64,000 nt of DNA from a virus: positions 29,343 through 93,342 of the IMG/VR virus record IMGVR_UViG_3300042564_004524; one strand, written 5' to 3'. Positions within the stretch are counted from its first letter, which is position 1. Every line of letters starts with the position of its first letter. The translations under genes were made by a program, and so were the position numbers. This document shows, piece after piece, positions 3,014 through 41,781 of the stretch. Under the pieces are notes generated by a model. It did not search any database, was not told the origin of the DNA, and was given only the letters and a program-made list of their open reading frames with translations.

Positions 3014-3337
3014 GAGAGGGTGTTTGAGAGTAGTAGCTATTAGGAAAGTCCCTCCTCTTTATCGAAAGATAAATGAAACTTTGTACTGGCGGTGGTATCA
3101 AACACAAAGACGTAAGTATTGGGGTTGTAAGACCCCAAGAATGGTACCGTAGCTCAGTTGGTAGAGCAATGGACTGAAAATCCATGTGTCACTGGTTCGA
3201 ATCCAGTCGGTACCACTACAGTAAGACGGTTAGCCTTACGTAAAGAACTTTAAGACACCATGGAAGGTTTTAAAGGGAAATGACGCTAACAGCTGAGGAA
3301 GTGCTAGAACTTCTGGGTTTGCAGTTCGGACCCTCTC
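3014..3337 (+). ncRNA. Structured RNA with RNase P-like blocks, tRNA-Phe inside
   Basis: The ends pair perfectly over 8 bp (GAGAGGGT at 3014-3021 with ACCCTCTC at 3330-3337), like a P1 closing helix, and the 5' end sits just downstream of a promoter. AGGAAAGTCC at 3042-3051 matches the conserved 5' block of bacterial RNase P RNA. ACAGTAA at 3219-3225, GGGAAATGAC near 3280 and TAGAAC near 3306 are weaker matches to other conserved blocks. A GAAA-capped hairpin lies near 3060-3075. A complete tRNA-Phe is embedded at 3143-3215. Calling it RNase P RNA is an inference; a processed tRNA precursor with long paired flanks is the alternative. Confidence 0.4.
3143..3215 (+). tRNA. tRNA-Phe (GAA)
   Basis: Full cloverleaf. 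The acceptor GGTACCG pairs with CGGTACC, and the D arm GCTC/GAGC is standard. The anticodon stem ATGGA/TCCAT encloses CTGAAAA, giving anticodon GAA. The T loop is TTCGAAT, and the discriminator is A3215. CCA is not encoded. It lies inside a longer RNA whose ends pair with each other. Confidence 0.95.
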
Positions 3338-3356
3338 CCAAAGAAAACACTGCAAT

Positions 3357-3382
3357 GGTACTATCATGGGAACGATAGTACC
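3357..3382 (+). other. 9-bp hairpin between RNAs
   Basis: GGTACTATC (3357-3365) pairs without mismatch with GATAGTACC (3374-3382) around an 8-base loop. There is no T tract, so it is more likely a processing or spacer element than a terminator. Confidence 0.6.
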
Positions 3383-3388
3383 AAAACA

Positions 3389-3464
3389 CGGGGATAGCAT
3401 AAGGGCGGCAGTTCCTTGCAGAACGTATACTAGTTGCCGAGGGGTTCGACTCCCTTCTCCCCGA
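3389..3464 (+). tRNA. tRNA-like RNA, anticodon arm abnormal
   Basis: CGGGGA at the 5' end pairs with TCCCCG at the 3' end, and a T arm (AGGGG/CCCTT around TTCGACT) is present, so this is tRNA-derived. Between them CGGCAG pairs with TTGCCG and encloses about 22 bases that hold a second hairpin, GTTC/GAAC. No 7-base loop with a U33 and an anticodon can be drawn, and the normal variable loop is missing. Isotype cannot be assigned. It may be a degenerate tRNA, or one of the set of anticodon-altered tRNAs seen elsewhere in this window. Confidence 0.55.
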
Positions 3465-3478
3465 CTAAATTATTAACT

Positions 3479-3652: not shown

Positions 3653-3713
3653 AAAATAGGTAAAGAAAGATTATTTCAGCAATTTAAATCAAAGCTCTCT
3701 TAAAGCCGTGGTC

Positions 3714-3808
3714 GCAGGTTCGAATCCTGTCTAGTTTTTCCTAGGAAAAGCAAGTAGCTCAGTTGGATAGAGCACGTATGAAAAAATTAATCTTGTTACC
3801 TACATATG
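3714..3808 (+). other. tRNA halves in reversed order
   Basis: A T arm (GCAGG/CCTGT around TTCGAAT, 3714-3730) is followed by CTAGTTTTTCC, a 2-base TA loop, and GGAAAAGCAAG, then TA and a normal D arm (GCTC AGTTGGATA GAGC, 3757-3773). The two acceptor-like strands pair as an 11-bp hairpin with one mismatch. After the D arm, CGTATG (3775-3780) can pair with CATATG (3803-3808), which runs into the next tRNA-like gene. The order, 3' half then 5' half, is that of a permuted tRNA gene. The anticodon stem strands of the two halves do not match, so two broken tRNAs side by side is equally possible. Confidence 0.35.
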
Positions 3809-3881
3809 AGGATAGCTCAGTTGGTAGAGCGCTCGGTGGTTCGCTGCCGAGAGGTTGCAGGTTCGAGTCCTGCTCCTTGTA
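3806..3881 (+). tRNA. tRNA-like RNA with tetraloop in place of anticodon loop
   Basis: Acceptor ATGAGGA/TCCTTGT (two wobbles), D arm GCTC/GAGC, 5-base variable loop AGGTT and T arm GCAGG/CCTGC around TTCGAGT are all standard. The anticodon stem CTCGG/CCGAG encloses ten bases instead of seven (3837-3846). TGG and CTG at the ends of that segment can continue the stem and leave a TTCG tetraloop. TCG after a T33 would make it an Arg tRNA, but the loop length is wrong. It resembles 41981-42056 in this respect. Confidence 0.7.
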
Positions 3882-3917: not shown

Positions 3918-3948
3918 TTTGTAGTTACAAAAATACTTCGTATATTTG
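3918..3948 (+). promoter_or_regulatory. Bacteroidota-type promoter
   Basis: TTTG at 3918-3921, 19 bp, TATATTTG at 3941-3948. It drives the coiled-coil gene at 3975 and the gene after it. Confidence 0.8.
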
Positions 3949-3974
3949 CATTGTAAAACATAAACAATAACAAA

Positions 3975-12315: not shown

Positions 12316-12441
12316 GGAGGGGTTGAAATGTTGGTTAAATACACATTCTGCCTTTTGTAAAAGAATGTTTACAGCAAATAAATTTATTATCAAGCAAACT
12401 GTAAATTTGAAAAACGTGTGGTTCGATTCCCACCCCCTCCA
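12316..12441 (+). tRNA. tRNA-like RNA with expanded anticodon and variable arms
   Basis: Acceptor GGAGGGG pairs perfectly with CCCCTCC, discriminator A, and a T loop TTCGATT sits in a GTG-T-GG/CCCAC stem with one bulge. The D region contains GTTGGTTAAA. In place of a normal anticodon arm there is a long hairpin: ACATTC/GAATGT with inner CTTTT/AAAAG and a TGC bulge. In place of the variable loop there is TTACAG/CTGTAA around an AT-rich loop. At 126 bases it is far longer than a tRNA and no anticodon can be read. Confidence 0.6.
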
Positions 12442-12446
12442 CTAAA

Positions 12447-21339: not shown

Positions 21340-22899
21340 ATGAGACTTAAAAGAAATATTATTCGAAAACTAGAACAAGCTATCGCTAACGATGATATGT
21401 CATCTATTAAATCGATAGAAAAGGTTCTAAAAAAAGTATTGGAAAAACCAGAAAACTTGGTTTTATGTTCTGATGCTTACAAGTATTCACACCACAGATT
21501 TTATGGTAGTGAAATGACCAAAATGGTTTCTTATTTGGAATCAAGAGGTGGTAAATTCTCTGAAACCGTATTCTATGGTCTTCAAATTATCCTTAAACGT
21601 TTCTTAGAGGGTGTTGCTATCACAAAAGAAGAAGTTGATGAAGCTTACGAATTCTTAGGTACTAAATACGGTGTATTTGGTCGTGATGATGTGTTCGACA
21701 GAAGTAAATTTGATTACATTGTTGAAAAATACGATGGTCATTTACCAGTTAGTATCAAAGCGGTGCCTGAGGGAACTGTTGTAGGTACTCACAATGTACT
21801 TATGGTTATTGAAAGCCTTGACCCTGAGTGTGCATGGTTAACTAACTTCTTAGAAACAATCTTGTTACAAGTTTGGTATCCAATTACTGTTGCTACGTTA
21901 TCAAGAGAAGTACGAAAAATTGTTGATGAAGCTTATAGAAATTGTACTTCATACGATGATGGTCTTAGAAGTTTCCTTGTAGATTTTGTACTTAATGATT
22001 TTGGATTCCGAGGGGTATCATCAGTTGAATCAGCTGGTATTGGTGGTTCTGCACACCTTGTAAACTTTAGAGGTTCAGATACGCTTATGGGTTCAAAATT
22101 CATTGTAGAAAACTACAACACCGACACTATTTATGGTTTATCTATCCCTGCGACAGAACATTCTATTATGACTCTAAGAGGTGAAGAAGGTGAATTAGAT
22201 TTAATGAAACGTGTTTTAACACTTTTCCCAACTGGTATCGTTGCTTGTGTGTCTGATTCATTCAACATTTTTAGAGCGTGTAAAGACTATTGGGGTGGTG
22301 AATTGAAAGAATTAATCCTGTCAAGACCTACTGAGCCTGGTAATCAACTTGTTATCCGTCCTGACTCTGGTCACGTAATCAACTCACTAAGAGAGATTTT
22401 CCACATTCTTTTCGAACAATTTGGTTATACCGTAAACGAAAAAGGTTACAAAGTTTTACCTCCACAAGTTAGAGTTATTCAAGGTGATGGTATCAATTTA
22501 GAGTCTATCAAAGAAATCTACGCATTGTTGGAAGAAGAAAAAATCTCACCAGAAAACTTAGCGTTAGGTATGGGTGGTAAATTACTTCAAGCTGGTATTG
22601 ACCGTGATACTCAAAACTTTGCAACAAAAGCTTGTTTTGCGGTACTTGATGGAAAAGAAGTTGATGTGGTAAAAGCACCAACTGAAATGGATGCTGATGG
22701 TAACATTACCAAATCATTCAAGAAGTCTAAAAAAGGACGTTTGAAATTGGTTAAAAATGAAGATGGTACATACAGAACAGTTACATCTTCAGAGGTTGAA
22801 TTTGATACTGTAAAAGACGAGTTAGTTGAAGTGTTTAACATGGGTAAGCTAACACACGAATGGTCTTTTGAACAAGTAAGAGAAAAAGCAAAATTATAA
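21340..22899 (+). CDS. nadV: Nicotinamide phosphoribosyltransferase (Nampt)
   Basis: 519 residues, near the family's usual 460-490 with a 35-residue helical N-terminal addition. Conserved blocks: DAYKYSHHRFY, GVSSVESAGIGGSAHLVNF then RGSDT, SIPATEHSIM (active-site region), VSDSFNIFRAC, VIRPDSGH and VIQGDGI. It joins nicotinamide and PRPP to make NMN. Together with the NMN adenylyltransferase at 19689 it rebuilds NAD+ from the nicotinamide that NAD-consuming defences release; PRPP can come from the synthetase at 27780. It has its own promoter. Confidence 0.96.
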   Translation: MRLKRNIIRKLEQAIANDDMSSIKSIEKVLKKVLEKPENLVLCSDAYKYSHHRFYGSEMTKMVSYLESRGGKFSETVFYGLQIILKRFLEGVAITKEEVDEAYEFLGTKYGVFGRDDVFDRSKFDYIVEKYDGHLPVSIKAVPEGTVVGTHNVLMVIESLDPECAWLTNFLETILLQVWYPITVATLSREVRKIVDEAYRNCTSYDDGLRSFLVDFVLNDFGFRGVSSVESAGIGGSAHLVNFRGSDTLMGSKFIVENYNTDTIYGLSIPATEHSIMTLRGEEGELDLMKRVLTLFPTGIVACVSDSFNIFRACKDYWGGELKELILSRPTEPGNQLVIRPDSGHVINSLREIFHILFEQFGYTVNEKGYKVLPPQVRVIQGDGINLESIKEIYALLEEEKISPENLALGMGGKLLQAGIDRDTQNFATKACFAVLDGKEVDVVKAPTEMDADGNITKSFKKSKKGRLKLVKNEDGTYRTVTSSEVEFDTVKDELVEVFNMGKLTHEWSFEQVREKAKL

Positions 22900-22900
22900 T

Positions 22901-23131
22901 ATGGTTAAGTATGTAACAAAAAAAACAAAACATAACACAGAATTTAATCTAAAATTGGATAATGACAAAGTTATGGTTAAGTTTGAACCAACTTTCACTC
23001 ATGATTACATTATGGTTACGGAATTTCTAGAAAAACATAGATTGACTGACCATGAAAAGATTGTTTTAATGAATGGGATTTATGATTTGGGTTTCATGTT
23101 ATCGTATAAACCAATTTTAAAAAAAAGATAA
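22901..23131 (+). CDS. Small protein of unknown function
   Basis: 76 residues, basic, soluble (MVKYVTKKTKHNTEFNLKLD and onward). It follows Nampt after one base, so is co-expressed with it. Not recognised. Confidence 0.78.
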   Translation: MVKYVTKKTKHNTEFNLKLDNDKVMVKFEPTFTHDYIMVTEFLEKHRLTDHEKIVLMNGIYDLGFMLSYKPILKKR

Positions 23132-23134
23132 ATT

Positions 23135-23749
23135 ATGTTAGAATTTTTAGCAAATAGTTACGTTATACTTATAGTAGGTATCGTAGCAGCCATAGTGACG
23201 ATGATTTCACTAGAGGTAGAAGAAGAAGGGTGGGCAACAACCGCTGTAAGTATAGCGTTAGCTTTGTTGCTTTGGAACTACGGACATGACCTTTGGTCGT
23301 TCGTTAAAGAGGATTACGGAACAACTTTATTGTTTGTTTTGGGTTATCTTGTGGCAGGAGTGGTGTGGTCATTCTTGAAATGGAATGAATTTGTTAAGCG
23401 TAAAGTTAGCATCTACAAAAAAGTTAGAGCTGAGTTAATAGTTAAAAGACCAGATTTTGATGAAAACAGTGATAAAAGTGTGGAGATGTTATGTCAAAAA
23501 CTTAGAGAGAATAGAATCTCTGTTTGGGGTTACGATGTTAAAACAATGGCTGAGTTAAAACTTAAAATAATGCCAATAGGTAGTGAAAACAAAGCTGGTA
23601 TTATTGCTTGGATTTCATACTGGCCATTATCTTTGTTGGCAACGTTGTTAAACAATCCATTCAGAAGACTTTTTGAGTATGTATACAGTCTTGTTGCTAA
23701 TGCTTATGATAAAATAAGTCAAAAACATTTTAAATCTTTAAATGACTAA
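23135..23749 (+). CDS. Membrane protein of unknown function
   Basis: 204 residues. Membrane helices at about 7-27, 33-50 and 65-83, then a charged soluble part (about 85-150) and a further hydrophobic stretch near 160-180. It lies between Nampt and NADAR genes in one operon. Not recognised. Confidence 0.8.
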   Translation: MLEFLANSYVILIVGIVAAIVTMISLEVEEEGWATTAVSIALALLLWNYGHDLWSFVKEDYGTTLLFVLGYLVAGVVWSFLKWNEFVKRKVSIYKKVRAELIVKRPDFDENSDKSVEMLCQKLRENRISVWGYDVKTMAELKLKIMPIGSENKAGIIAWISYWPLSLLATLLNNPFRRLFEYVYSLVANAYDKISQKHFKSLND

Positions 23750-23751
23750 TC

Positions 23752-24240
23752 ATGAAAACAGATAAATTCATATTTTTCTGGGGCGGTACTTATAGCCAAT
23801 GGTACCCCTCAAAGTTTGTTATCGATGGTGTTGAATATAACTGTTGTGAGCAATACATGATGGCAAAAAAAGCTTTGTTGTTTGAAGACGTTGATTCTTA
23901 CAACAAAATCATGAATACCAAAGGACCTAAAGAACAAAAAGCCCTAGGGCGTAAAGTCAAAAATTTCAACAAAGACAAATGGGAAGCTGTATGTCGTGAA
24001 GTTGTATATGAGGCTAACTACGCTAAGTTTAGTCAAAACTCTTTGATGAAAAAAGAGTTGTTGCGAAGTGGTAAATTAGAAATAGTTGAAGCTAGTCCAG
24101 AAGATAAAATCTGGGGTATTGGTATGCACGAATCACATCCAGACATTAACGACAAAACAAAATGGCAAGGAACCAACTGGCTTGGTGAAGCTATTATGAG
24201 AGTTAGAGATAAATTTGATGAAGAGGAAAAATGGCATTAA
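23752..24240 (+). CDS. NADAR-family (DUF1768) protein
   Basis: 162 residues, the typical single-domain length. FFWGGTYSQWYPSKFVIDG, YNCCEQYMMAKKALLF and ASPEDKIWGIGM are the diagnostic blocks (the usual forms are F-x-S-N, E-x-x-x-x-x-K and D-x-x-W-G). NADAR proteins remove ADP-ribose from guanine bases and thus reverse DarT-type DNA modification; some relatives act on riboflavin intermediates. The next gene is a macrodomain that overlaps it by 10 bases. The pairing points to removal of ADP-ribose from nucleic acid as a counter-defence (inference). Confidence 0.9.
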   Translation: MKTDKFIFFWGGTYSQWYPSKFVIDGVEYNCCEQYMMAKKALLFEDVDSYNKIMNTKGPKEQKALGRKVKNFNKDKWEAVCREVVYEANYAKFSQNSLMKKELLRSGKLEIVEASPEDKIWGIGMHESHPDINDKTKWQGTNWLGEAIMRVRDKFDEEEKWH

Positions 24241-24902
24241 AAGACAATTACCAAAAAAACGATTTCCTAATCAAAAAGACTGGTAAATACAAAACGTTAA
24301 GAAGCGGAATAGTAAAACACGTTCTTAAAATTGGAAACCATCGATTGAAAACAATCGATACGGTTTTAAACCCGATAATTATAAATGGTAGAAGAAGATA
24401 CAGCGCTGAAACTGTGTTCTTATATCGAGATTTAACAAGACCTGTATTAAGTATGATAAAGTATATCGATGGCGATTTGGTCCGAGATGCCGACCAATAT
24501 GACGTAATTGCGCATTGTTGCAATTGCTTCTGCACGATGGGTGCTGGTATAGCCCCACAAATTAAACATAAGTTCCCTGAGGCGTATGCTGCTGATTGTA
24601 CAACAACAGCTGGGGACCAAAACAAACTAGGTACCATAACCTATACTGAAAACACAACACCTATTGTTGTTAACTTGTATGGTCAGTATGACTACAAGGG
24701 TAGACAGTTTGGTAAAATGGACTTAGATTACGCTGCTTTGCGTTCAGCATTGGCCGCTATGAAAGTTAAATTCACTGGTAAAAAAATTGGTCTACCTATG
24801 ATTGGTGCAGGTTTAGCTGGTGGTGATTGGAATATAATTGAAAGGATAATCCAAGAAGAATTAAACGGTGAAGATGTTACGGTTGTAAAATATGTACCAT
24901 AA
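24231..24902 (+). CDS. Macrodomain protein
   Basis: 223 residues. Residues 1-75 are a basic N-terminal region that I cannot assign. Residues 78-220 are a macrodomain: IKYIDGDLVRDADQYDVIAH, CNCFCTMGAGIAPQIKHKFP, GTITYTENTTPIVVNLYGQ and GLPMIGAGLAGGDWNII. The glycine-rich loops for ADP-ribose are intact, and the form is close to Poa1/TARG1/DarG-type hydrolases. In DarTG systems the macrodomain strips ADP-ribose from thymidine. Overlap with the NADAR gene implies coupled translation, so the phage may erase two chemically different base modifications. Confidence 0.9.
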   Translation: MALKDNYQKNDFLIKKTGKYKTLRSGIVKHVLKIGNHRLKTIDTVLNPIIINGRRRYSAETVFLYRDLTRPVLSMIKYIDGDLVRDADQYDVIAHCCNCFCTMGAGIAPQIKHKFPEAYAADCTTTAGDQNKLGTITYTENTTPIVVNLYGQYDYKGRQFGKMDLDYAALRSALAAMKVKFTGKKIGLPMIGAGLAGGDWNIIERIIQEELNGEDVTVVKYVP

Positions 24903-24904
24903 CA

Positions 24905-24935
24905 TTTGATATTTAAAAATAATTTCGTATCTTTG
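24905..24935 (+). promoter_or_regulatory. Promoter abutting start codon
   Basis: TTTG at 24905-24908, 19 bp, TATCTTTG at 24928-24935; ATG 24940 is four bases downstream. Confidence 0.78.
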
Positions 24936-24939
24936 CAAT

Positions 24940-25494
24940 ATGAAAATAATATTCTTAGACCATGATGGTGTTATTTGTTTAGGTAGTGAATTTGGAAGTA
25001 GATTCAAAAAACAAAAGAGAAGTGTTGCACAAACAATAGCCGACGAATCTATCCCAGTTATAGAACGATTCGACAATTTCAACAAAAAAGCTATCAAAGT
25101 ATTAAATGAAATACTTGAAGAAACTGATGCTGAAATTGTTGTTTCGTCTGATTGGAGAAGATGGGCAAACTTGGAAGAATTAGGTGAGTTTTATGAGTCG
25201 CAAGGTATCATCAAAAAACCAATAGCTCTTACACCTGCGTTAGCATCTTTTGCGCCAGATACAGCTGCGTTATTTGATTGGAAACGTTGGTATGAGAGAA
25301 CAAGGATTGTTGAAATCAAAGAGTACCTTAAAAATAATGAAGTTGAGAGTTGGGTAGCTGTAGACGATATGGATATGTCACTTACAGCCTTTGAAGATAA
25401 CGGATTATCAAACTTTGTTCACACTCCAAGACTATACGAGGGTATTAAACAATCTGGGGTGAAAGAAAAAATAATAAATTTTTTAAACAGTTAA
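24940..25494 (+). CDS. HAD-fold protein, SAK-type
   Basis: 184 residues. MKIIFLDHDGVICLGS is the HAD nucleophile motif (DxDGV), SSDWRR is motif II, and AVDDMDM is the acidic motif IV. The layout, with WRRWANLEELGEFYESQGI, is like the HAD domains found in 'Swiss Army Knife' RNA-repair proteins. It has its own promoter with ATG four bases after the -7 box, suggesting a leaderless message. Substrate unknown; a 5'- or 3'-phosphate on RNA is a guess from family. Confidence 0.78.
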   Translation: MKIIFLDHDGVICLGSEFGSRFKKQKRSVAQTIADESIPVIERFDNFNKKAIKVLNEILEETDAEIVVSSDWRRWANLEELGEFYESQGIIKKPIALTPALASFAPDTAALFDWKRWYERTRIVEIKEYLKNNEVESWVAVDDMDMSLTAFEDNGLSNFVHTPRLYEGIKQSGVKEKIINFLNS

Positions 25495-25495
25495 A

Positions 25496-25678
25496 ATGGC
25501 AGAACAATCCATTAAAGTAGGTATAGCCAACGAAGGTGAAACCGTTTTACCAGTTAGTGTATTGGAAAAATGGGAACCTAAAAATGTTACTCAACTTGGT
25601 GATACTGTATTCTTCAAACAAGAAGATATATTTTACTCAATGAAAGTTGTTGATTTTAGAGAAATATATAAATTATGA
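25496..25678 (+). CDS. Small protein of unknown function
   Basis: 60 residues, mixed strands (MAEQSIKVGIANEGETVLPV and onward). ATGA overlap with the next gene. Not recognised. Confidence 0.72.
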   Translation: MAEQSIKVGIANEGETVLPVSVLEKWEPKNVTQLGDTVFFKQEDIFYSMKVVDFREIYKL

Positions 25679-26121
25679 GTATAACAAGAGCAATTGAAAT
25701 TAATCATTTTCAATTAAAAGAAAAAAGAAACTGGGATAGAACGTTTTGGTTTTTTGATATTCACGGTACGATTCTAAAACCAAATTACCAATATGGTAAT
25801 ACACCAAGTGAATACTACCCAATGGCTAAAGAAACGTTACAATTAATATCAAAAATAGATGATATTGTAATGATTATTTATACGTGTTCACATTTACACG
25901 AAATAAAAGAATACTTAGATTTATTCAAAAGTGATAACATTCATTTCAAATATGTGAATGAAAACCCTGAAGTTCCTACCGACCCTAAAGGTTATGGAAA
26001 TTATGATAAAAAACCTTATATGAACGTTTTGTTTGAGGACAAAGCTGGATTCAACCCAGAAACGGATTGGCAAGAGGTTTATGGGTTATTATTAGAAAGA
26101 TACTCACATTTAAAAATATAA
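25675..26121 (+). CDS. HAD-like protein
   Basis: 148 residues. FWFFDIHGTILKPNY (about residue 25) is a HAD motif I (DxHGT), IIYTCS resembles motif II, and FEDKAGF resembles the acidic motif. The second Asp of motif I is replaced by His, as in some related proteins of phages. Possible phosphatase; low certainty on activity. Confidence 0.72.
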   Translation: MSITRAIEINHFQLKEKRNWDRTFWFFDIHGTILKPNYQYGNTPSEYYPMAKETLQLISKIDDIVMIIYTCSHLHEIKEYLDLFKSDNIHFKYVNENPEVPTDPKGYGNYDKKPYMNVLFEDKAGFNPETDWQEVYGLLLERYSHLKI

Positions 26122-26125
26122 AAAT

Positions 26126-26422
26126 ATGAAAAGATTATTTACAATTATGTTAGTTATATTACTAGCAATTTTTACTGTTAGTTGTGCAGATGTTGCTCAT
26201 GTAACTTTTACTAACCCAAATGAACATGTTTATGGTTTTTGGGGTGGTACATGGCATGGAATGACTATGTTCCCATCATTTATTGGTAGTCTTATCTGGG
26301 ATGATATTGCTGTGTATGCTGTGCATAACAACGGTGGTTGGTATGATTTTGGGTTTGTTGGTGGGTTTTTTATAATGTTAAGGTTTTTTGCCAACTTAAT
26401 AAAATTTATTACCCAAAAATAA
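26126..26422 (+). CDS. Small putative lipoprotein
   Basis: 98 residues. The signal peptide MKRLFTIMLVILLAIFTVSC ends in a Cys suited to lipid attachment, so it should be exported and anchored. The mature part is Trp/Gly/Phe-rich with one more hydrophobic segment near the C terminus. Exported phage lipoproteins often alter the cell surface, for instance superinfection exclusion; this is inference. Confidence 0.78.
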   Translation: MKRLFTIMLVILLAIFTVSCADVAHVTFTNPNEHVYGFWGGTWHGMTMFPSFIGSLIWDDIAVYAVHNNGGWYDFGFVGGFFIMLRFFANLIKFITQK

Positions 26423-26423
26423 A

Positions 26424-27188
26424 ATGAAAAGAATAGTAGTATTTTCTGGTGCTGGGTTAGATAAAGAATCAGGTATTTCAACTTTTAGAGATTCAGCTGA
26501 TGGGCTTTGGAATAATTTTAAAATTGATGATGTGGCGACATTAGATGGTTGGAGAAAAGACCGTTCAAAAGTTTTAGAATTTTATAATCAAAGACGTAGA
26601 GAATTACCTAATGTACAACCAAACGATGCTCACTATGCTTTAGTTACTTTAGAATCAGAATACGATGTTACCCATGTAACGCAAAACGTTACTGATTTAT
26701 TAGAGAGAGCTGGTTCGTCTAAGGTGTTACATTTACATGGTGAGTTAACAAAAGCTAGGTCATCGTACCTTAATGGCAATCCTATTATGGATAAATTAGG
26801 TGTTAATAATAACCCAATACATATTGGATATAATGATATTAATCTAGGTGATAAATGTGAAAAATATGGTGCTCAACTAAGACCACATATAGTTTGGTTT
26901 GGTGAATATCCTTTTTTCTTTTATAACGCGTTAGAAGCTTTTATAGAAGCTGATATTATAATCATAATTGGTACAAGTATGAATATTGGTTATACTTATG
27001 AATTCTTTAAAAACTGTAAAAAAGATACGCCTATTTATTTTGTAGACCCAGAACCAACAAAATCAATTGAGTTAGAATATCCAGACTTGAAAATTACATA
27101 CATTGAAAAGGGTGCTGTTGAAGGGGTGAATGAATTAATAAATAAACTAATGGTACAAGCCATTGGTGATGATAAAAACGACAAATAA
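26424..27188 (+). CDS. Sir2-family NAD-dependent protein lacking zinc cysteines
   Basis: 254 residues. NAD-binding motifs: VVFSGAGLDKESGISTFRD (residues 5-22), VTQNVTDLLERAGS, LHLHGEL with the catalytic His, and IIIIGTSMNIGYTY near residue 180. LRPHIVWFGE is the usual late motif. The four Cys residues of the structural zinc site, expected after HGEL, are absent; a 30-residue Asn-rich segment takes their place. It could be a deacylase, an ADP-ribosyltransferase, or an NAD+ hydrolase as in some defence sirtuins. It lies in the NAD+ block and overlaps the next gene by one base. Confidence 0.88.
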   Translation: MKRIVVFSGAGLDKESGISTFRDSADGLWNNFKIDDVATLDGWRKDRSKVLEFYNQRRRELPNVQPNDAHYALVTLESEYDVTHVTQNVTDLLERAGSSKVLHLHGELTKARSSYLNGNPIMDKLGVNNNPIHIGYNDINLGDKCEKYGAQLRPHIVWFGEYPFFFYNALEAFIEADIIIIIGTSMNIGYTYEFFKNCKKDTPIYFVDPEPTKSIELEYPDLKITYIEKGAVEGVNELINKLMVQAIGDDKNDK

Positions 27189-27550
27189 TGAGCGTAATTA
27201 AATTTGAATTAAAAGAAGAACACGTAAAACTATTAAAAAATTTACGTTGGTCTGTTAACCAAGAGGGTCATATCGCAGGTATTGGTCACGATGGTGTGGA
27301 ATATAACGAACCCTTTGGTGAAGATGATATGTATGAAGCCATAGACATTATATTAAATGGTAGACCAGCTGATTTCGACCCGTTTAATACTGAGGAAAAA
27401 GTTAAGTATACCGATGAACAAAAAGAAGCGTGGGATAACTTATACCATGAATTACCAACAGCGTTGGATGTTGTCTTGTATAATGGAAGCTACGAGTTGG
27501 GATTATATAAAACAAAATACCACGATAGAGTGTGGAAAAAAATAAATTAA
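27188..27550 (+). CDS. Protein of unknown function
   Basis: 120 residues, acidic, soluble (MSVIKFELKEEHVKLLKNLR and onward). It is translationally coupled to the sirtuin gene (TAATG). Not recognised. Confidence 0.8.
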   Translation: MSVIKFELKEEHVKLLKNLRWSVNQEGHIAGIGHDGVEYNEPFGEDDMYEAIDIILNGRPADFDPFNTEEKVKYTDEQKEAWDNLYHELPTALDVVLYNGSYELGLYKTKYHDRVWKKIN

Positions 27551-27554
27551 TATT

Positions 27555-27728
27555 ATGAAAACAAAACTTATTATCTATTTTCTAGTAGCATTGCTAATTA
27601 TCATTTTGTTTAAAATGATGTTTATTGGTGTGATTATCTTTATTCACCTTGTAAAATACATAGCCATAGCAGCCGCTATAGCTTATGGTGCCTACTGGAT
27701 AAACAAAAAATTAAAAAAAGATGAATAA
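27555..27728 (+). CDS. Small membrane protein
   Basis: 57 residues. Two adjacent hydrophobic stretches (about 3-32 and 35-48) and a Lys-rich end (INKKLKKDE). It follows the previous gene after four bases and its stop codon lies in the terminator stem. Not recognised. Confidence 0.7.
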   Translation: MKTKLIIYFLVALLIIILFKMMFIGVIIFIHLVKYIAIAAAIAYGAYWINKKLKKDE

Positions 27729-27755
27729 CCATTTGGTTATTCATTTTTTATTTTG
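27723..27755 (+). terminator. Terminator overlapping next promoter
   Basis: GAATAACC (27723-27730) pairs with GGTTATTC (27735-27742) around ATTT, then a T-rich tract. The TTTG of the next promoter lies inside this stem. Confidence 0.75.
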
Positions 27756-27763
27756 TATCTTTG
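27732..27763 (+). promoter_or_regulatory. Bacteroidota-type promoter
   Basis: TTTG at 27732-27735, 20 bp, TATCTTTG at 27756-27763, upstream of the PRPP synthetase gene. Confidence 0.78.
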
Positions 27764-27779
27764 CTAAAAATTACAAAAT

Positions 27780-28763
27780 ATGTTAGAATCTGTCCTTATA
27801 TCAATTGATGGTCGAGAAAAATTGGCCGAAGAAATTGTTAAAGCAATCCGAAAAAAATCCTCAGACCCGATAGTGGTTGATTATGCTAATTCACAAAAGT
27901 TTTCAGACGGGGAACTATGTGTTGATTTTTGCAATTCAATTAGAGGTAAACGTGTTTATCTATTGACTAGTCCAAACAACTCGGATGAAATCATCAAATT
28001 AAATTTAGCCATAGATGCCGCAAAGCGTGCTGCTGCTAAAGAAATTATTCCAATATTACCTTATTTTCCGTATGCTCGTCAAGACAAAAAAGACCAATCA
28101 AGAGGACCAATCGGTGCTAAGGTTATGGTTGAAATGATTGAGCATAGAGGGGCAACTGGTGTTATTACTTTTGATTTACATGCTGACCAAATTCAAGGTT
28201 TTTTCAACATACCAGTAACCCATCTAGAAGGTAAAAATATATTTGATAGCTATGTGGCTAGTATCTATAACGAAAACACAATCTTGTGTGGTCCTGATGC
28301 TGGTTCTGGTAAACGTGTAAAGCGTATGAAAGACCAATTAGGTAAATACCATGACATTTCAATCAATTATGTTATGTTGGATAAAACTCGTAAACAAGCT
28401 AATGTAATCGATGAAATGGTTATTATTGGTGATGTGACTGGTAAAGATGTCATCATATTGGATGATATGGTTGATACAGCTGGTACACTATGTAAAGCGG
28501 CTGAAGTAATTATGGAAGCTGGTGCCAATAGCGTAAGAGCAATTATCAGCCATGGTGTATTATCTGGACCTGCTTTGGGTCGTATTGAAAAATCAGTATT
28601 AAAAGAACTTATTATTAGCGATTCTTTGGATAAAGGTGAAGGTGATATAGGTTTTGGTGTTCAAAAGATAAAAGTCGTGTCAATGGCAAAACAAATAGCC
28701 TTAGCAATTATAGCAATTAATAGTCATTCAAGTTATGAAGGACTTAAAAAAGAACGTTTCTAA
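27780..28763 (+). CDS. prs: Ribose-phosphate pyrophosphokinase (PRPP synthetase)
   Basis: 327 residues, the usual length. Conserved blocks: FSDGELCVDF, LPYFPYARQDKKDQSRGPIG (ATP loop), ITFDLHADQIQGFF, and the PRPP-binding loop DVIILDDMVDTAGTL. It makes PRPP from ribose 5-phosphate and ATP. PRPP is the co-substrate of the Nampt at 21340, so it should feed NAD+ rebuilding as well as nucleotide synthesis. In the related phage pathway NARP1 a Prs-like enzyme itself acts on ADP-ribose; whether this one does cannot be told by eye. Confidence 0.95.
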   Translation: MLESVLISIDGREKLAEEIVKAIRKKSSDPIVVDYANSQKFSDGELCVDFCNSIRGKRVYLLTSPNNSDEIIKLNLAIDAAKRAAAKEIIPILPYFPYARQDKKDQSRGPIGAKVMVEMIEHRGATGVITFDLHADQIQGFFNIPVTHLEGKNIFDSYVASIYNENTILCGPDAGSGKRVKRMKDQLGKYHDISINYVMLDKTRKQANVIDEMVIIGDVTGKDVIILDDMVDTAGTLCKAAEVIMEAGANSVRAIISHGVLSGPALGRIEKSVLKELIISDSLDKGEGDIGFGVQKIKVVSMAKQIALAIIAINSHSSYEGLKKERF

Positions 28764-28840
28764 TGCAAACACAATTATTAGACTATATCAAGGATTTACC
28801 AGAGAACACAAGAATTACAGTGGTTGATTGCCACATCTAA
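28763..28840 (+). CDS. Possible very small protein
   Basis: 25-codon frame MQTQLLDYIKDLPENTRITV and onward, starting in the stop codon of prs (TAATG) and ending ten bases before the Thg1-like start. Its position supports translation, but its size does not allow certainty. Confidence 0.4.
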   Translation: MQTQLLDYIKDLPENTRITVVDCHI

Positions 28841-28850
28841 AAACAAAACA

Positions 28851-29675
28851 ATGGGAAAAAACACAAGTTTTGGTGACCGTATGAAAGAATACGAGTCATG
28901 TTATAATTTTAAAATACCGAACAGGTCGTATGTAATCATACGACTTGACGGTAAAGGTTTTAGTAAATATACTACAATGTTTGATAAACCATTTGACGAC
29001 ATTCTATCCAATGTGATGGATGCTGCTACTATTGAACTATGTAAGTATTTGAATCCGCTATTTGCTTATACGCAATCAGATGAAATTAGCCTTGTGTTTT
29101 CAACCATTGAGAACATTGATGCTGATTTGCCATTTGATGGTAAAGTACAGAAGCTATGTAGTATTTCAGCTTCAAAAGTAACAGCAGCGTTTAACAAGAC
29201 AATGCTTAGAATGCTTGCCGCTTTTAAGCCAGAGGAATTTAATTTAATGGAGAAAATCATTAGTGGTGAATTCCCAGAACTTGATGCGGTATTTGATTCA
29301 AGGGTATTCGTTATACCAGACTTTAGAGAGGTGTCTAACTATTTCATTTGGAGACAACAAGATTGTACTAGAAATAGTATTAGTATGGCAGCACACGCTT
29401 TGTTAGGTCACTCAGCCACTATGAACAAGTCTAGTGATGAAAAACAAGAGATGCTTTTTAAAGAGAAGGGTGTCAATTGGAGTGATTACAAAGTTAAATA
29501 CAAGCGAGGTGTTGTTGTAAAAAAACAAACCATTTGGGTTGATGGTCAAAATGGTGAACCAATTCAAAGAAGTAAATGGCTTCCAGATTACGATATTCCA
29601 ATCTTTACACAAGAAAGAGAATATTTGTATAATTTAATCCCAGTAATTAAAATTACTGAAGATAATGTTGTATAA
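28851..29675 (+). CDS. Thg1-like protein, tRNA 3'-5' polymerase
   Basis: 274 residues from ATG 28851 (MGKNTSFGDRMKEYESCYNF); the frame is open from 28824, but that stretch overlaps the small frame before it. YVIIRLDGKGFSKYTTMF and YTQSDEISLVF are the metal-binding palm motifs of tRNA-His guanylyltransferase, and HALLGHSATMNKSSDEKQEM is a typical following region. Thg1 adds G to the 5' end of tRNA-His. Bacterial and phage Thg1-like proteins instead repair 5'-shortened tRNAs by templated 3'-5' addition. The many tRNA and tRNA-like genes here supply obvious substrates. Confidence 0.93.
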   Translation: MGKNTSFGDRMKEYESCYNFKIPNRSYVIIRLDGKGFSKYTTMFDKPFDDILSNVMDAATIELCKYLNPLFAYTQSDEISLVFSTIENIDADLPFDGKVQKLCSISASKVTAAFNKTMLRMLAAFKPEEFNLMEKIISGEFPELDAVFDSRVFVIPDFREVSNYFIWRQQDCTRNSISMAAHALLGHSATMNKSSDEKQEMLFKEKGVNWSDYKVKYKRGVVVKKQTIWVDGQNGEPIQRSKWLPDYDIPIFTQEREYLYNLIPVIKITEDNVV

Positions 29676-34433: not shown

Positions 34434-34940
34434 ATGATTAAGAAAAACAAACAAAAAGAAAGACAACACAAATTAAATTTTGAAATTAAACACCCAATGG
34501 TGCGTGTTGGTGAACATGGTGTGATTACAGTAAAAGAAGCTCAAAAAATGGCTGATGAACAAGAACTTGATTTGGTTCTTATCAATGAAAACGCTCAACC
34601 ACCAGTTTGCAAAATAATGAATTATGAAAAATTCATTTATCAACAAAATAAAGCGGTTAAAAATAAATCGCTGGATGTTAAAGAGATAAAACTCGGACCA
34701 AATACTTCTGAAAACGACTTATCTTATAGAACAAAACACATATGCGAGTTCTTAGATAAGGGTCATAAAGTTAAATTGACAATGCAGTTTAGAGGTCGTG
34801 AAATGGCGTTTGTTGACAAAGGACAAGAAGTGATGTTAAAATTAATTGTTAGTGTTGAAGACCATGGTTCTGCTGAGTCTGTACCAAAACTTGAAGGTAA
34901 AAAGTTACAATGCACACTTAAACCAAAACCAAAGAAATAA
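34434..34940 (+). CDS. infC: Translation initiation factor IF-3
   Basis: 168 residues, the length of bacterial IF-3. The N domain has VRVGEHGVITVKEAQKMADE and LDLVLINENAQPPVCKIMNY; the C domain has VKEIKLGPNTSENDLSYRT and KVKLTMQFRGREMAF. Both 30S-binding domains are intact. Cellular IF-3 selects start codons and splits ribosomes; a phage copy could bias initiation towards phage or leaderless messages. Normally a host gene, so it was acquired. Confidence 0.95.
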   Translation: MIKKNKQKERQHKLNFEIKHPMVRVGEHGVITVKEAQKMADEQELDLVLINENAQPPVCKIMNYEKFIYQQNKAVKNKSLDVKEIKLGPNTSENDLSYRTKHICEFLDKGHKVKLTMQFRGREMAFVDKGQEVMLKLIVSVEDHGSAESVPKLEGKKLQCTLKPKPKK

Positions 34941-34977
34941 GGTTTACATTTTAGTTTTCCGTTAGTATTATTGGACT

Positions 34978-35541
34978 ATGAAAAAATACATAGTCAAATA
35001 CTTAACGGAAAATTATTTTTTAGACAAAAGTCAAATTGGGAACGCTGGAATATATTCCTTTGATGATACTAGAGAGTGGAAGACTCCAGTCAACGCTAAG
35101 GAGTTAATTGAAGAAATTGTAACATTATTTGGTTATTCTTTCACTAGAACCAAATGGTTTATTCATGCATGGGCTAAGAACCAAAAACCAGATTATTGCT
35201 TAAACTTTTATTGGACTAGTCATAAGATTGATGGTGATATATTCTTGCCTATTGCTAGGCGAGTTATGGCATCAACAATTGCTCAAGACTTAGTTAGGGT
35301 TGAACCCATGGGTGGTCCAACAGGAACTATTATGTATTTAGACCACTCGACACCAGATTATTTAATAGGTGGTGACCCAGTGGTTGACAACCCACACATC
35401 AATATAGCAAAAGTTAGAAATCCAGATAGGGATGCGATAATAAGAAAATGGGAAGCCAGTGGTTTATTAGAGGGTATTGATAATTCAAAACAAAGTATTG
35501 CTGCGCTGTATGAAGCCCAAGCAAAGCAATTTTTGAAATAA
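34978..35541 (+). CDS. Protein with major-capsid-like motifs
   Basis: 187 residues. Residues 85-122 read PIARRVMASTIAQDLVRVEP followed by MGGPTGTIMYLD, close to the segment of T4-like major capsid proteins (R-R-x-x-x-x-x-I-A-x-D, then Q-P-M-x-x-P-T-G). The C terminus KWEASGLLEGIDNSKQSIAA then LYEAQAKQFL resembles an N-terminal segment of such capsid proteins, so the order looks reversed. The protein is too short to be a capsid protein. A scaffolding or capsid-derived role, or simple resemblance, are both possible. Confidence 0.72.
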   Translation: MKKYIVKYLTENYFLDKSQIGNAGIYSFDDTREWKTPVNAKELIEEIVTLFGYSFTRTKWFIHAWAKNQKPDYCLNFYWTSHKIDGDIFLPIARRVMASTIAQDLVRVEPMGGPTGTIMYLDHSTPDYLIGGDPVVDNPHINIAKVRNPDRDAIIRKWEASGLLEGIDNSKQSIAALYEAQAKQFLK

Positions 35542-35562
35542 TAGAAATATTTATTAAAAGAG

Positions 35563-35593
35563 TTGTATAACTTAAAAATAAGATGTATTTTTG
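35563..35593 (+). promoter_or_regulatory. Bacteroidota-type promoter
   Basis: TTG at 35563-35565, 20 bp, TATTTTTG at 35586-35593. Confidence 0.75.
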
Positions 35594-35607
35594 CACCAAA
35601 TGAATGA

Positions 35608-35955
35608 ATGAAGTTTAATATTATAAAAACTAGAAATGGAAAATTAAGGAACAAATTATCTAACAATTTTCTAAACAATAAATTAACCGAAGAGGATATT
35701 GATTTGTTAATGTCCATGATTGATGATTATGAGAAAGCTAATTTATTAGTTATTGAAAAATTAAGAAAAGAAAAAAAGATTGAAGCAAAAAGAATAAGTG
35801 GTGCACTTAAACAAACAATACATGCACATGGTGCAATAACCAAAGTTTTTATAGGAAGCGCTACAAAACGCATAATGGGTGCCCTATTAACCAACGAAAA
35901 AAAAGAAAGTTTTATCAACAAATTAAAAAAGTTTTTTATTAAATGGATAAGTTAA
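35608..35955 (+). CDS. Small helical protein of unknown function
   Basis: 115 residues, basic, helical (MKFNIIKTRNGKLRNKLSNN and onward). ATGs at 35600 and 35604 run into early stops, so 35608 is the start. It overlaps the transporter-like gene by 13 bases. Not recognised. Confidence 0.78.
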   Translation: MKFNIIKTRNGKLRNKLSNNFLNNKLTEEDIDLLMSMIDDYEKANLLVIEKLRKEKKIEAKRISGALKQTIHAHGAITKVFIGSATKRIMGALLTNEKKESFINKLKKFFIKWIS

Positions 35956-36785
35956 AAATAATTTTTAAAAATAATTGGAAATCGATAATGTTATCATATA
36001 CGTTATTTTCAATAAATTCGATTTTAATGTTAATGTATCCAAAAATATTGGGTAATACAATTGACCATTTAATTGCTAAAGATTATACGTATATTTGGTA
36101 TATGATAGGGATATTTATTTTATTAATGTTTTTTGGTTATATCAGTAAAATATACGATATAAAAGTCTTTTCAGGTATATTTAGAAAATTTGCTTCTGAT
36201 GAAACTAAAAAACAATTTGAAAACGGTGTTGAAACAACAAAAATAAATGGTAGATTAACACTGATGCATTCTGTTATTAGATTTTTTGAATTTGATATGA
36301 TTGTGGTTCTTAACACAATCTTTGGTGTTTTAGGTTCATTATATTTTTTATCTTTAGTTAGTTGGCCAATTGTTGGGTTTTTATTAATAAGTGGTTTAGC
36401 TATTTTAGCTGCTAGTTATTATTATTCACCAAAATTAGCAGCAATGACTAGATTAAATAATGATATATCTGAAGAACAAACTGATATAATATCTGATAGA
36501 AAAATAAAGGGTGTTAACAATTTATTAAGAAGAGGTCAAAAAATAGCTATTAAAAAATCATACATAGATTCAAATTTTGGTCTTTGGATACAAACAATAG
36601 TTTATGGTAGCGTAACAGCTTTATTAACATACTATGTTATGTATAATAAAGTTACGGTAGGTAGTGTATTTTCAACTTATCGTTATATGTTTGATTTCTG
36701 TAATGCTTTATTAGGGTTACCTACAATATTGACATCTTATCTTAATATTAAAGATGTTGTAAAACGATTAGAAACAGAAGAATAA
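35943..36785 (+). CDS. ABC-exporter membrane domain without ATPase
   Basis: 280 residues, about six membrane helices arranged like the type-1 transmembrane domain of MsbA/ABCB exporters: long helices with charged intracellular extensions, for example DETKKQFENGVETTKINGRL and the loop ISDRKIKGVNNLLRRGQK. The protein ends (VVKRLETEE) where the ATPase domain would begin, and no ATPase gene follows. It could borrow a host ATPase, or act by itself as a channel or inhibitor. Codon use is very AT-rich. Confidence 0.8.
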   Translation: MDKLKIIFKNNWKSIMLSYTLFSINSILMLMYPKILGNTIDHLIAKDYTYIWYMIGIFILLMFFGYISKIYDIKVFSGIFRKFASDETKKQFENGVETTKINGRLTLMHSVIRFFEFDMIVVLNTIFGVLGSLYFLSLVSWPIVGFLLISGLAILAASYYYSPKLAAMTRLNNDISEEQTDIISDRKIKGVNNLLRRGQKIAIKKSYIDSNFGLWIQTIVYGSVTALLTYYVMYNKVTVGSVFSTYRYMFDFCNALLGLPTILTSYLNIKDVVKRLETEE

Positions 36786-36786
36786 A

Positions 36787-37308
36787 ATGAAAAAATTTAC
36801 AAAATTATCGGTATTTGACTTTGATGGGACGCTTATAGATACACCGCTTCCAGAAGAAGGAAAAAAAATATATAAAGAAAAAACTGGCAAGGATTGGCCA
36901 CATGCTGGATGGTGGGGCCAACCTATGAGTCTTGATATGCAAGTCTTTGAGATGCCAACAATAAGCAATGTAATTAATGATTATAAGAAAGAAACCAAAA
37001 ACCCTGATACTATGATTGTTATGGTTACTGGTAGAATGGTTAAATTAACTGATTTGGTTAAAGACATACTTAACAGACACGGTCTTAAATTTCATGAATA
37101 CCATTTCAACAGAGGTGGTAGCACAGAATCAGCTAAAAAGAAAACATTTGACCAAATCCTATCACAACACCCTTCAATAAAAGAAGTTGAGTTATGGGAT
37201 GACAGAGAGGAACATATACCCATTTTTCAAGCATGGGGTGATGAACATGTTGCATCTGGTCGATTAGATAAATTTAATATAAATGTAGTGCCTTCTGTAA
37301 GGCATTGA
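36787..37308 (+). CDS. HAD domain protein of SAK RNA-repair type
   Basis: 173 residues. LSVFDFDGTLIDTPLPEEGK then a WPHAGWWGQPMSLDMQVFEM segment is characteristic of the HAD domain of 'Swiss Army Knife' RNA-repair proteins (F-D-T-P-x-P and the GWW motif). VTGRMVKLTDLV and ELWDDREEHIP are motifs II and IV. In those proteins the HAD domain handles phosphate ends during RNA repair. It is a candidate partner of the Thg1-like polymerase in tRNA maintenance; a ligase gene is not visible here. Confidence 0.85.
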   Translation: MKKFTKLSVFDFDGTLIDTPLPEEGKKIYKEKTGKDWPHAGWWGQPMSLDMQVFEMPTISNVINDYKKETKNPDTMIVMVTGRMVKLTDLVKDILNRHGLKFHEYHFNRGGSTESAKKKTFDQILSQHPSIKEVELWDDREEHIPIFQAWGDEHVASGRLDKFNINVVPSVRH

Positions 37309-37315: not shown

Positions 37316-37341
37316 CCCGCTATAAAATAGTGGGTTTTTTT
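37316..37341 (+). terminator. Rho-independent terminator
   Basis: CCCGCTAT (37316-37323), loop AAA, ATAGTGGG (37327-37334, one G-T), then seven T. Confidence 0.88.
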
Positions 37342-37342
37342 A

Positions 37343-37373
37343 TTGTTAAAAAGAAAAAAAATAAGTATTTTTG
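37343..37373 (+). promoter_or_regulatory. Promoter abutting start codon
   Basis: TTG at 37343-37345, 20 bp, TATTTTTG at 37366-37373; ATG 37378 is four bases downstream. Confidence 0.78.
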
Positions 37374-37377
37374 TAAT

Positions 37378-41120: not shown

Positions 41121-41151
41121 TTGACTTGAATTAAAAAAGTTAGTATATTTG
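41121..41151 (+). promoter_or_regulatory. Promoter of third RNA cluster
   Basis: TTG at 41121-41123 within TTGACTTG, 20 bp, TATATTTG at 41144-41151. It is very similar to the promoter of the main tRNA cluster at 10354 and opens about 900 bases of non-coding RNA. Confidence 0.82.
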
Positions 41152-41163
41152 CATTATAAAATA

Positions 41164-41347: not shown

Positions 41348-41446
41348 GCGAGAGTGGCGAAGTTGGTAAACGCTAAGGTTTTTAGCCAGAAGTACTATGG
41401 AACAACTAAGAACTTGGTGTCGGTGGTTCGAGCCCACCCTCTCGCA
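41348..41446 (+). tRNA. tRNA-like RNA with long anticodon-arm hairpin
   Basis: Acceptor GCGAGAG/CTCTCGC, D stem GCG/CGC with GTTGG in the loop, T arm GGTGG/CCACC around TTCGAGC, discriminator A: a good tRNA body resembling tRNA-Leu at its 5' half. The middle does not fit a Leu tRNA. TAAG/CTTG encloses TTTTTAG/CTAAGAA (7 bp) and CCA/TGG, giving a 40-base hairpin where the anticodon arm should be, followed by only a short variable loop. A Leu (TAG or TAA) reading would need an ill-formed stem. Confidence 0.6.
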
Positions 41447-41468: not shown

Positions 41469-41557
41469 ACAGAAGACATATTAGCGATGTTGAAAGGAAC
41501 CTTGGCTTCATGGGATTAGCTACCCAACCGAAGTTCGAATGCCCCAAGGTACTCTGT
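41469..41557 (+). ncRNA. Folded small RNA
   Basis: ACAGA (41469-41473) pairs with TCTGT (41553-41557). Inside, ACAT/ATGT forms one hairpin, and CCTTGG/CCAAGG with CTTC/GAAG and TGGG/CCCA forms a long stepwise stem. Length is about 89 bases. It contains the string GAAGTTCGAATGC, similar to a T loop but not in a T stem. From 41558 to 41663 I see only one further hairpin (TGAGAA 41592-41597 with TTCTCA 41606-41611). Confidence 0.35.
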
Positions 41558-41663: not shown

Positions 41664-41781
41664 GGTTAGGTGGCGGAATAGTAGACGCTCGGAGGTCAAA
41701 AGATTTTGTACATAACTGCGGTAAGTGAGGATATTGACTGTTGAACACTTACAATTACAGGTTCAAGTCCTGTCCTAACCA
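41664..41781 (+). tRNA. tRNA-like RNA with hairpin in anticodon loop and large variable arm
   Basis: Acceptor GGTTAGG/CCTAACC, D stem GCG/CGC, T arm ACAGG/CCTGT around TTCAAGT, discriminator A. The anticodon stem CGGAG/CTGCG (one mismatch) encloses 21 bases, with CAAAA/TTTTG forming a hairpin inside. The variable arm is a perfect 7-bp stem GTAAGTG/CACTTAC with an 18-base loop. Total 118 bases. Body resembles class II (Leu-type), but no anticodon can be read in a 7-base loop. Confidence 0.62.

Follow-up and report, generated by a model that had tools for sequence, protein, structure and literature searches.

Judged from its proteins, the 64,000-nucleotide stretch of DNA analysed here (the window) belongs with the huge phages: among named records, the closest at the protein level is LR756500.1, from an uncultured phage of 462 kb, and a near relative, G001, measures 306 kb. 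The window contains 14 matches to the tRNA family model RF00005 (Infernal, 36.1-77.5 bits), and the 93-kb virus record of which it is a part contains 29 tRNA-family matches. Two tRNA-like RNAs of the window, both on the + strand, at 3806-3881 and 41981-42056, score 54.2 and 57.5 bits, respectively, inside that range and above the gathering score of 29, and are both labelled 'tRNA-???' by ARAGORN. According to RF00005, both have the cloverleaf of a canonical tRNA, with acceptor, D-arm and T-arm; neither has the canonical 5-bp anticodon stem with a 7-nt loop and U33, the 10 nt within the stem being paired down to a tetraloop. The protein-coding surroundings include NAD-related genes (NadV-like, PRPP synthetase, Sir2, Macro and NADAR), Thg1, two HAD_SAK genes and an IF3 gene, at 21340-29672 and 34434-37305.

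The first of these capped RNAs combines an acceptor stem AUGAGGA/UCCUUGU, which includes a G3.U70 pair, with a D-arm, an extended anticodon arm, a T-arm and A73, all delineated by RF00005, ARAGORN and the covariation of its orthologs. Its anticodon arm (3832-3851, + strand), CUCGG-UGG-UUCG-CUG-CCGAG, is an 8-bp stem with a UUCG cap, the ten bases within the normal 5-bp stem (3837-3846) being UGGUUCGCUG. In the second copy, the acceptor stem is AUCCGUA/UGCGGAU, again accompanied by a D-arm, an extended anticodon arm, a T-arm and A73 (RF00005, ARAGORN); the arm (42007-42026, + strand), UUCGG-UCC-GAGG-GGG-CCGAA, is likewise an 8-bp stem, with a GAGG cap, and the ten enclosed bases are UCCGAGGGGG. 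The three further pairs that leave the tetraloops are U.G, G.U and G-C in the first copy, two of the three being wobbles, and U.G, C-G and C-G in the second. Computed pair probabilities along the arm are 0.955-0.989 for the first copy and 0.998-0.999 for the second. The original prediction, namely, a tRNA body with its stem extended to a UUCG cap at the first site and the same design in a different sequence at the second, is thus borne out by both fold and Infernal score. The expectation that such RNAs could not decode normally is likewise upheld, in so far as the predicted fold leaves the loop closed. Relative to 300 dinucleotide shuffles for each RNA, the fold of the whole molecule has a z of -1.7 for the first copy and -3.3 for the second; given the modest margin for the first, ortholog covariation is the better test. 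CCA is encoded at neither copy, which says little because merely 21 of the 214 ordinary tRNA matches of the compared loci encode it. Pairing of A73 with a U at -1 was also considered as a distinguishing feature and set aside, given that -1:73 pairing is equally common in ordinary (133/214) and other (38/61) matches.

The first copy begins 3 nt past the terminal helix of another structured RNA (3657..3802, + strand), recognised by its match to RF02553, covariation and spacing, which consists of a terminal helix, UAGGUAA/UUACCUA, a second helix, AAGAUUA/UAAUCUU, and a permuted tRNA-like module. The order of this module, T-arm, acceptor stem closed by a loop, then D-arm, with the ends of the molecule paired, is that of the bacterial YrlA/Y RNAs, from which the capped RNAs, not being permuted, differ. 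The alignment to RF02553 (3686-3802) spans the full model and, together with covariation, establishes the permuted module closed by paired ends, but scores 35.9 bits, below the gathering score of 69. Ten sequences, that of the window among them, share one structure, in which half of the pairs (13/26) have undergone compensation in one sequence or more, and the terminal helix is kept while its sequence changes (UAGGUAA/UUACCUA, AUAGGUA/UGCCUAU, UAGACA/UGUCUA, GGGAA/UUCCC, GAGUA/UACUC). A TROVE/Ro60 gene was found in none of 12 related records, which may be fragments, and a host protein could still serve; 'YrlA-like' therefore denotes a shape rather than a proven kinship or partner, and a Ro60 partnership was set aside.

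The noncoding block around the first copy, as we read it, alternates noncoding stretches with tRNA or tRNA-like elements. Among the latter is an odd tRNA-like stretch at 3387..3466 (+ strand), delineated by sequence and fold, with a T-arm and acceptor and a degenerate D-arm, which is found also in G002. Between the first copy and the next gene lies a promoter-like TATATTTGCA (3941..3950, + strand), which may be a Bacteroidota promoter and of whose motif class the window contains 13 matches, against 2.8 expected. The structured-looking noncoding stretch at 3020-3115, closed by GUGUUUGA/UCAAACAC and containing GGAAAGUCC, is also present in G002; it sits ahead of tRNA-Phe or another tRNA-like RNA, and an Rfam search gave no match for it.

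Relatives of the first site were sought through the OmpA-domain gene 2.2 kb downstream of the first copy, which yielded 37 loci. An ortholog of the first copy was recognised in 14 of these (L074-L079, L083, L084, L086, L094, L097, L100, L108 and L110) and a YrlA-like RNA alone in two (L080 and L101); the counts below cover these loci. The orthologs comprise eight distinct sequences, or lineages, one shared by the window, G001 and G005, the others from G002 (L077), L078, L084, L086, L094, L108 and L110; those of L084 and L094 were identified by eye, the descriptor scan having missed both and placed the L110 ortholog among canonical tRNAs. All seven acceptor pairs form in 8/8 lineages. Both partners have changed in pairs 4-7 of the acceptor stem, 1, 3 and 4 of the D-stem, 2-5 of the anticodon stem and 1-3 of the T-stem; in this count, which excludes L086 for the anticodon stem, one D pair fails in one sequence and one anticodon-stem pair in one sequence. 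These two-sided changes imply that the tRNA body has been kept at the first site. The distance from helix to tRNA-like RNA is 2-4 nt in 6/8 lineages, such that, measured from the predicted terminal helix, the tRNA-like element abuts the 3' end of another RNA as in the mascRNA type; it is 87-89 nt in L078 and L086. In L080 and L101, the YrlA-like RNA has no tRNA-like RNA directly behind it, and the same holds for the first member of the tandem YrlA-like pairs in L086, L110, L094 and L084.

The stretch between the D-arm and the T-arm of these orthologs varies from 22 to 69 nt, and the loop differs between relatives in both sequence and size. The 10-nt loops go with a stretch of 26 nt in the window and of 28 nt in both L084 and L110; the stretch measures 34 nt in G002, where the arm contains GGGA-GAAA-UCCC, and 56, 68 and 69 nt in L086, L078 and L108, respectively. 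A homologue with a 7-base loop at the same locus, which the original prediction had named as evidence against itself, does exist, in one lineage of the eight (L094, 22 nt, loop CUAUAGA, with the identical stretch in L097 and L100), against six lineages in which the loop is enlarged or replaced; the L086 insert was left unparsed. The inserts of L078 and L108 (L078:4896-5012 and L108:4908-5025) contain a GGAAGC that resembles a D-loop and a second T-loop-like GGTTCGA; the anticodon arm may here enclose a further tRNA elbow, although the predicted folds of the two disagree. As for the extra three pairs, five distinct 10-nt loops were chosen by eye for length (two from the window, those of L084 and L110, and one from a third tRNA-like gene, in G002); their three outer positions yield 13 pairs out of a possible 15, against 7.1 expected for shuffled loops (p 0.0015; the near-identical L108 loop and eight other pattern-search stretches lie outside this value). 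Pairing of the added positions is thereby supported, whereas constancy of the loop among relatives is not. The body of the first copy is under selection, and its anticodon arm is closed or replaced. The original argument against random decay holds, on the firmer ground that the acceptor, D and T helices covary two-sidedly across eight lineages while the stretch between the D- and T-arms varies so widely.

At the second site, a promoter-like TATATTTGCA (41144..41153, + strand, assigned on the same motif count of 13 vs 2.8 expected) precedes a noncoding block of ~960 nt that contains three tRNA-like RNAs, the second copy coming last. The two preceding RNAs, also on the + strand, are one at 41348..41446 (RF00005, 41.5 bits, with a counterpart in the locus L130), in which a 48-nt stretch between the D- and T-arms includes a long stem replacing the anticodon loop, and one at 41664..41781 (36.1 bits), with an anticodon/variable region of unusual length. 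The block also holds, at 41555-41617, a match to the freshwater-1 RNA (RF02979) of 70.6 bits, for a gathering score of 72. A metallophosphoesterase gene (PF00149; 42075..42788, + strand) starts 18 nt past the second copy, and in L130 a tRNA-like RNA with a quite different arm likewise lies 18 nt before the start of the same gene (55% identical). By reading, the matching intergenic regions of G002 and G003 contain other RNAs and not the second copy, so that its conservation beyond near-identical relatives is confined to L130; comparison of the window with G001 is uninformative on constraint because the two hardly differ anywhere in the block. Between the window and L130, the long arm of the 41348-type RNA differs by a compensating change, CCA..UGG to CCC..GGG, in these two sequences compared by eye.

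The two capped RNAs belong to a wider set. A descriptor scan of 191 sequences (the window and 190 partly overlapping loci) gave 642 matches, 275 of them distinct, of which 214 have an ordinary anticodon arm and 61 lack one, the latter figure being an upper limit because the scanner mis-parses some ordinary tRNAs (e.g., tRNA-Cys in L062). The non-canonical matches have loops of 4-6 nt, 10-nt hairpins or inserts of ~40-130 nt, and A1-U72 is commoner among them (22/61 vs 13/214; Fisher p 2e-8, relatedness ignored). In one recurrent type, a YrlA-like stem and a CAGCA motif replace the anticodon arm, and the ends lie in the acceptor stem. When nine RNAs of this type were aligned with four doubled YrlA-like RNAs (of six), the score rose in 36/36 of the comparisons listed, with each alignment crossing the join, and in 34/36 it exceeded the best of 60 shuffles, which keep composition only and which such pairs would in part be expected to beat because both partners carry common tRNA motifs. 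Kinship aside, the alignments are such as a circular permutation would give. Several other unusual RNAs came to light: tRNA-like RNAs with weak matches to the tmRNA model at 12316-12444 (18.3 bits, with a long insert at the position of the anticodon arm) and, similar to it, at G002:40189-40316 (19.4 bits), and ARAGORN calls with stop-codon anticodons (CTA, TCA) in G001 and G002 (L062:14107-14180, L064:14867-14942 and L054:1221-1299), possible suppressor tRNAs.

Pattern searches extended this picture to other phages. A strict D-arm pattern with three extra bases recovered 12 stretches from viral sequences, of which four are the two window types, while L191 and L193 share one identical sequence with a different arm; among the other six, all three inner pairs form only in L192, L194 and L197, and on a full 5-bp stem only in L194. 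ARAGORN calls L195, L196 and L197 as Ile, Thr and Cys, respectively, and both the L194 RNA and its neighbour as tRNA-Ala(CGC); L194 is ambiguous, as an ordinary arm there would give 4/5 pairs. This last sequence, a piece of a 236-kb phage contig with 57.7% GC, compared to 31.7% in the window, contains at L194:2714-2963 two CCA-encoding tRNA-like RNAs that fold with GCAA-capped anticodon arms, interleaved with two more similar-looking CCA-ending stretches, identified by eye, with GAAA or GCAA caps, one copy being without GG in the D-loop. The pattern with three fewer bases gave 28 viral stretches; besides many without an intact acceptor, seven (L215, L219, L220, L226, L227, L229 and L237) have a 4-base loop on a perfect 5-6 bp stem and 6 or 7/7 acceptor pairs, with one arm common to L219 and L226 and another to L227 and L237. 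The latter two, from other phages, have a 5-bp stem, a UUCG cap and 7/7 acceptor pairs. Among cellular genome contigs, the strict pattern with three added bases produced eight stretches, but in none of them does an extended arm belong to a clean tRNA. The ordinary arm forms in L207 and L214; bases that are masked or unknown fall within or next to the arm of L208, L209 and L210; and the acceptor has no partner in L211, L212 and L213. In L212 and L213 the arm is nonetheless extended, with 5/5 stem pairs and, respectively, 3 and 2 of 3 inner pairs, which counts against calling such arms phage-only.

We found no description of such phage RNAs among the literature matches listed, which cover the field in part, and in the text of a review of non-canonical tRNAs (PMC7609411), no word starts with 'phage'. 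Megablast of 24 kb against named phages matched one record, at a tRNA, and blastn of the 236-nt first site returned 273 records, none covering 80% of the query, with the best 12 falling on annotated tRNA genes. The closest known parallels are mascRNA and menRNA, the RNAs from the 3' ends of MALAT1 and NEAT1/MEN-beta, which, as described in PMC11693755, share with the capped RNAs a tRNA-like body straight after another RNA and a longer stem with a compact loop at the arm equivalent to the anticodon arm; mascRNA, according to the same paper, is not aminoacylated. The differences are that mascRNA and menRNA are animal RNAs with a reduced D-arm and missing linkers, whereas the capped phage RNAs have a full D-arm, and that processing by RNase P and RNase Z is reported there for the animal RNAs and would apply to the phage RNAs by analogy. 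Phage tRNAs that escape anticodon nucleases are also altered at the anticodon loop; in those described by van den Berg 2023 (PMC10264068), however, mutations lie within the loop of tRNAs that replace the cut ones, whereas in the capped RNAs the loop itself is closed or replaced, unlike that of a decoding tRNA. GOLLD and ROOL, ornate phage RNAs, resemble the capped RNAs in being noncoding, in having no assigned function and in lying close to tRNA islands (PMC12286853); their Rfam models have no match within the window.

Like the capped RNAs, tmRNA is a tRNA-like RNA without an anticodon, and the relatives carry tmRNA and SmpB genes. The capped RNAs differ in having a complete D-arm and in their length of 76 nt, which could not accommodate a tag reading frame; the tmRNA family model has no match at 3806 or 41981, and G001 and G005 have a separate tmRNA. 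With RNase R and SmpB genes in the window (37330-39330 and 42794-43249) and a tmRNA over the cut-off at G001:194292-194645 as well as in G005, this is, going by gene content, a phage with most of a trans-translation system. In L012, L014 and L015, SmpB genes adjoin GOLLD RNA, and tmRNA is nearby in L012, L013 and L015. The idea of an SmpB partnership, which arose from SmpB, RNase R and G3.U70 taken together, was set aside, tmRNA being over the cut-off in 7/12 related records and SmpB present in 9/12.

What the capped RNAs might do is a separate question, on which two of the suggestions in the original prediction fare poorly: a decoy for anticodon-cutting enzymes is weakened by the absence of the very loop that those enzymes cut, and, as for a substrate of the Thg1-like protein, no link was found between the Thg1 gene (28851-29672) and the capped RNAs, both of which have U at -1. 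A related possibility is that these are free-standing scaffolds or baits, in which the body protects the RNA and competes for host proteins of defence or RNA processing that bind it by the acceptor, T-arm or elbow, the hairpin or insert being a separate module. Cas12a3, which grips the acceptor and T-arm (PMC12851939), could be such an enzyme, and others have proposed that the YrlA tRNA-like domain might competitively inhibit an anticodon nuclease (PMC7790460). The proportion of distinct matches flagged non-canonical (61/275, an upper limit), many with long structured inserts, and the RNA-repair-type genes of the window (Thg1 and two HAD_SAK) would suit a bait; nevertheless, no target enzyme is known in this host, and a bait would not account for the capped RNAs lying so close to the YrlA-like RNA or to a start codon, which leaves this scenario rather doubtful. 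A non-decoding alanine acceptor, charged by AlaRS through G3.U70 and A73 and donating or sequestering alanine outside decoding, strikes us as improbable. AlaRS reads G3.U70, not the anticodon; this pair is present in 7/8 first-copy lineages while pairs 4-7 all vary, and it occurs in 17/17 tRNA-Ala(TGC), in 10/61 non-canonical unique matches and in 3/197 other canonical-class matches, of which one is the L110 ortholog and two have odd loops (10/61 vs 3/197, Fisher p 4.6e-5, relatedness ignored). Yet the L094 lineage has A3-U70 and the second copy C3-G70; U70-G71-U72-A73 is constant in 8/8 lineages, so that this strand may be conserved for another reason; and with tmRNA over the cut-off in 7/12 related records, no substitute for it is needed there.

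Two further explanations would return the capped RNAs to the ordinary tRNAs. That they are relics of tRNA genes decaying by insertion into the anticodon loop would accord with the 7-nt loop at the first site in one related lineage, with the missing second copy in G002 and G003, and with the decay-like cellular L212 and L213, which have a paired extended arm and no acceptor partner; we nonetheless disfavour it as quite improbable in view of the helix covariation of the first copy, the pairing of the inserted bases (p 0.0015) and the recurrence of closed loops in other phages, such as L227 and L237. Still harder to credit are tRNAs with introns or expanded loops that, once spliced, would be ordinary or frame-shifting decoders. 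The 40-130 nt between the D- and T-arms of some relatives would match an intron plus an arm in size, but the 10-nt loops are paired and exceed an ordinary loop by just three bases, so that an intron would hardly fit, and the compensating change that separates the window from L130 in the arm of the 41348-type RNA (two sequences, by eye) points to a kept structure.

Given that the relatives retain the tRNA body and swap the anticodon arm, the capped RNAs seem to have the shape of a tRNA but to serve some purpose outside translation. We tentatively propose, with a confidence that stops somewhat short of even, that they are non-decoding tRNA-like RNAs retained for the functions of the elbow and acceptor, most likely the processing of flanking RNAs in the manner of mascRNA and menRNA. 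The enzymes that mature tRNAs would recognise the body through the elbow and acceptor stem, so that cleavage at its 5' end would release the RNA in front and cleavage at its 3' end would free what follows: at the first site, the YrlA-like RNA would be released and trimmed, and at the second, the following mRNA, with its start codon 18 nt on, would be freed. Without an anticodon loop, the product would take no part in translation and would offer anticodon-cutting defences nothing to cut. The result would be 'tRNA punctuation' built from non-decoding tRNAs, as with mascRNA and menRNA in animals, where, according to PMC11693755, a longer stem with a compact loop goes together with elbow recognition by RNase P and RNase Z.

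The positions of the capped RNAs, behind the YrlA-like RNA and before a start codon, fit such a processing role. Consistent with it are a body that covaries on both sides around a D-to-T stretch of 22-69 nt, the 2-4 nt spacing behind the YrlA-like helix in 6/8 lineages, the 18 nt shared by the second copy and its L130 counterpart ahead of the same gene, and the alternation of noncoding stretches with tRNA or tRNA-like elements in the first block. Sequence identity between the window and G001/G005 is weaker support: it is 76/76 for the first copy, against 135/140 for the YrlA-like RNA and 154/174 for a 57-aa ORF, but adds little because the noncoding stretch 3216-3386 is equally identical (171/171). 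Against processing stand the solitary YrlA-like RNAs of L080 and L101 and the unaccompanied first copies of the tandems in L086, L110, L094 and L084, the extra 87-89 nt that intervene in L078 and L086, inserts of 56-69 nt that exceed the needs of a spacer, and the apparent absence of the second copy from G002/G003, with L130 as the one sign of its conservation beyond near-identical relatives. Processing also leaves G3.U70 in 7/8 lineages unaccounted for and fails to explain the loss of the loop because ordinary tRNAs could punctuate as well.

A broader proposition, which we hold to be close to evenly balanced yet leaning against, is that the huge phages of this group carry modular non-decoding tRNA-like RNAs in which a single body is combined with interchangeable anticodon-arm modules, namely, tetraloop hairpins, long stems and a Y-RNA-like stem, including pairs that resemble circular permutations of each other, one with its ends in the acceptor stem and the other with its ends in the Y-like stem and the acceptor closed. 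The capped tRNAs of the window would be the simplest members of this set, and, given the tetraloop-capped tRNAs of apparently unrelated phages (L227/L237 and perhaps L194), closing of the loop would be a recurrent phage device. Taken together, the capped RNAs would be of a known kind, the tRNA-like noncoding RNAs; the phage form, with its conserved body, is both real and odd, and the proposed role plausible. The tRNA genes of phages are normally counted as aids to decoding or as replacements for cut tRNAs. If the proposed interpretation is true, conserved phage tRNAs that are unable to decode make up a separate class, which would provide a bacterial parallel to mascRNA and whose presence in huge phages would bias tRNA counts as well as anticodon statistics. 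The finding also places a YrlA-like RNA in phages without a detected Ro60 gene, along with a possible natural pair of circularly permuted RNAs.
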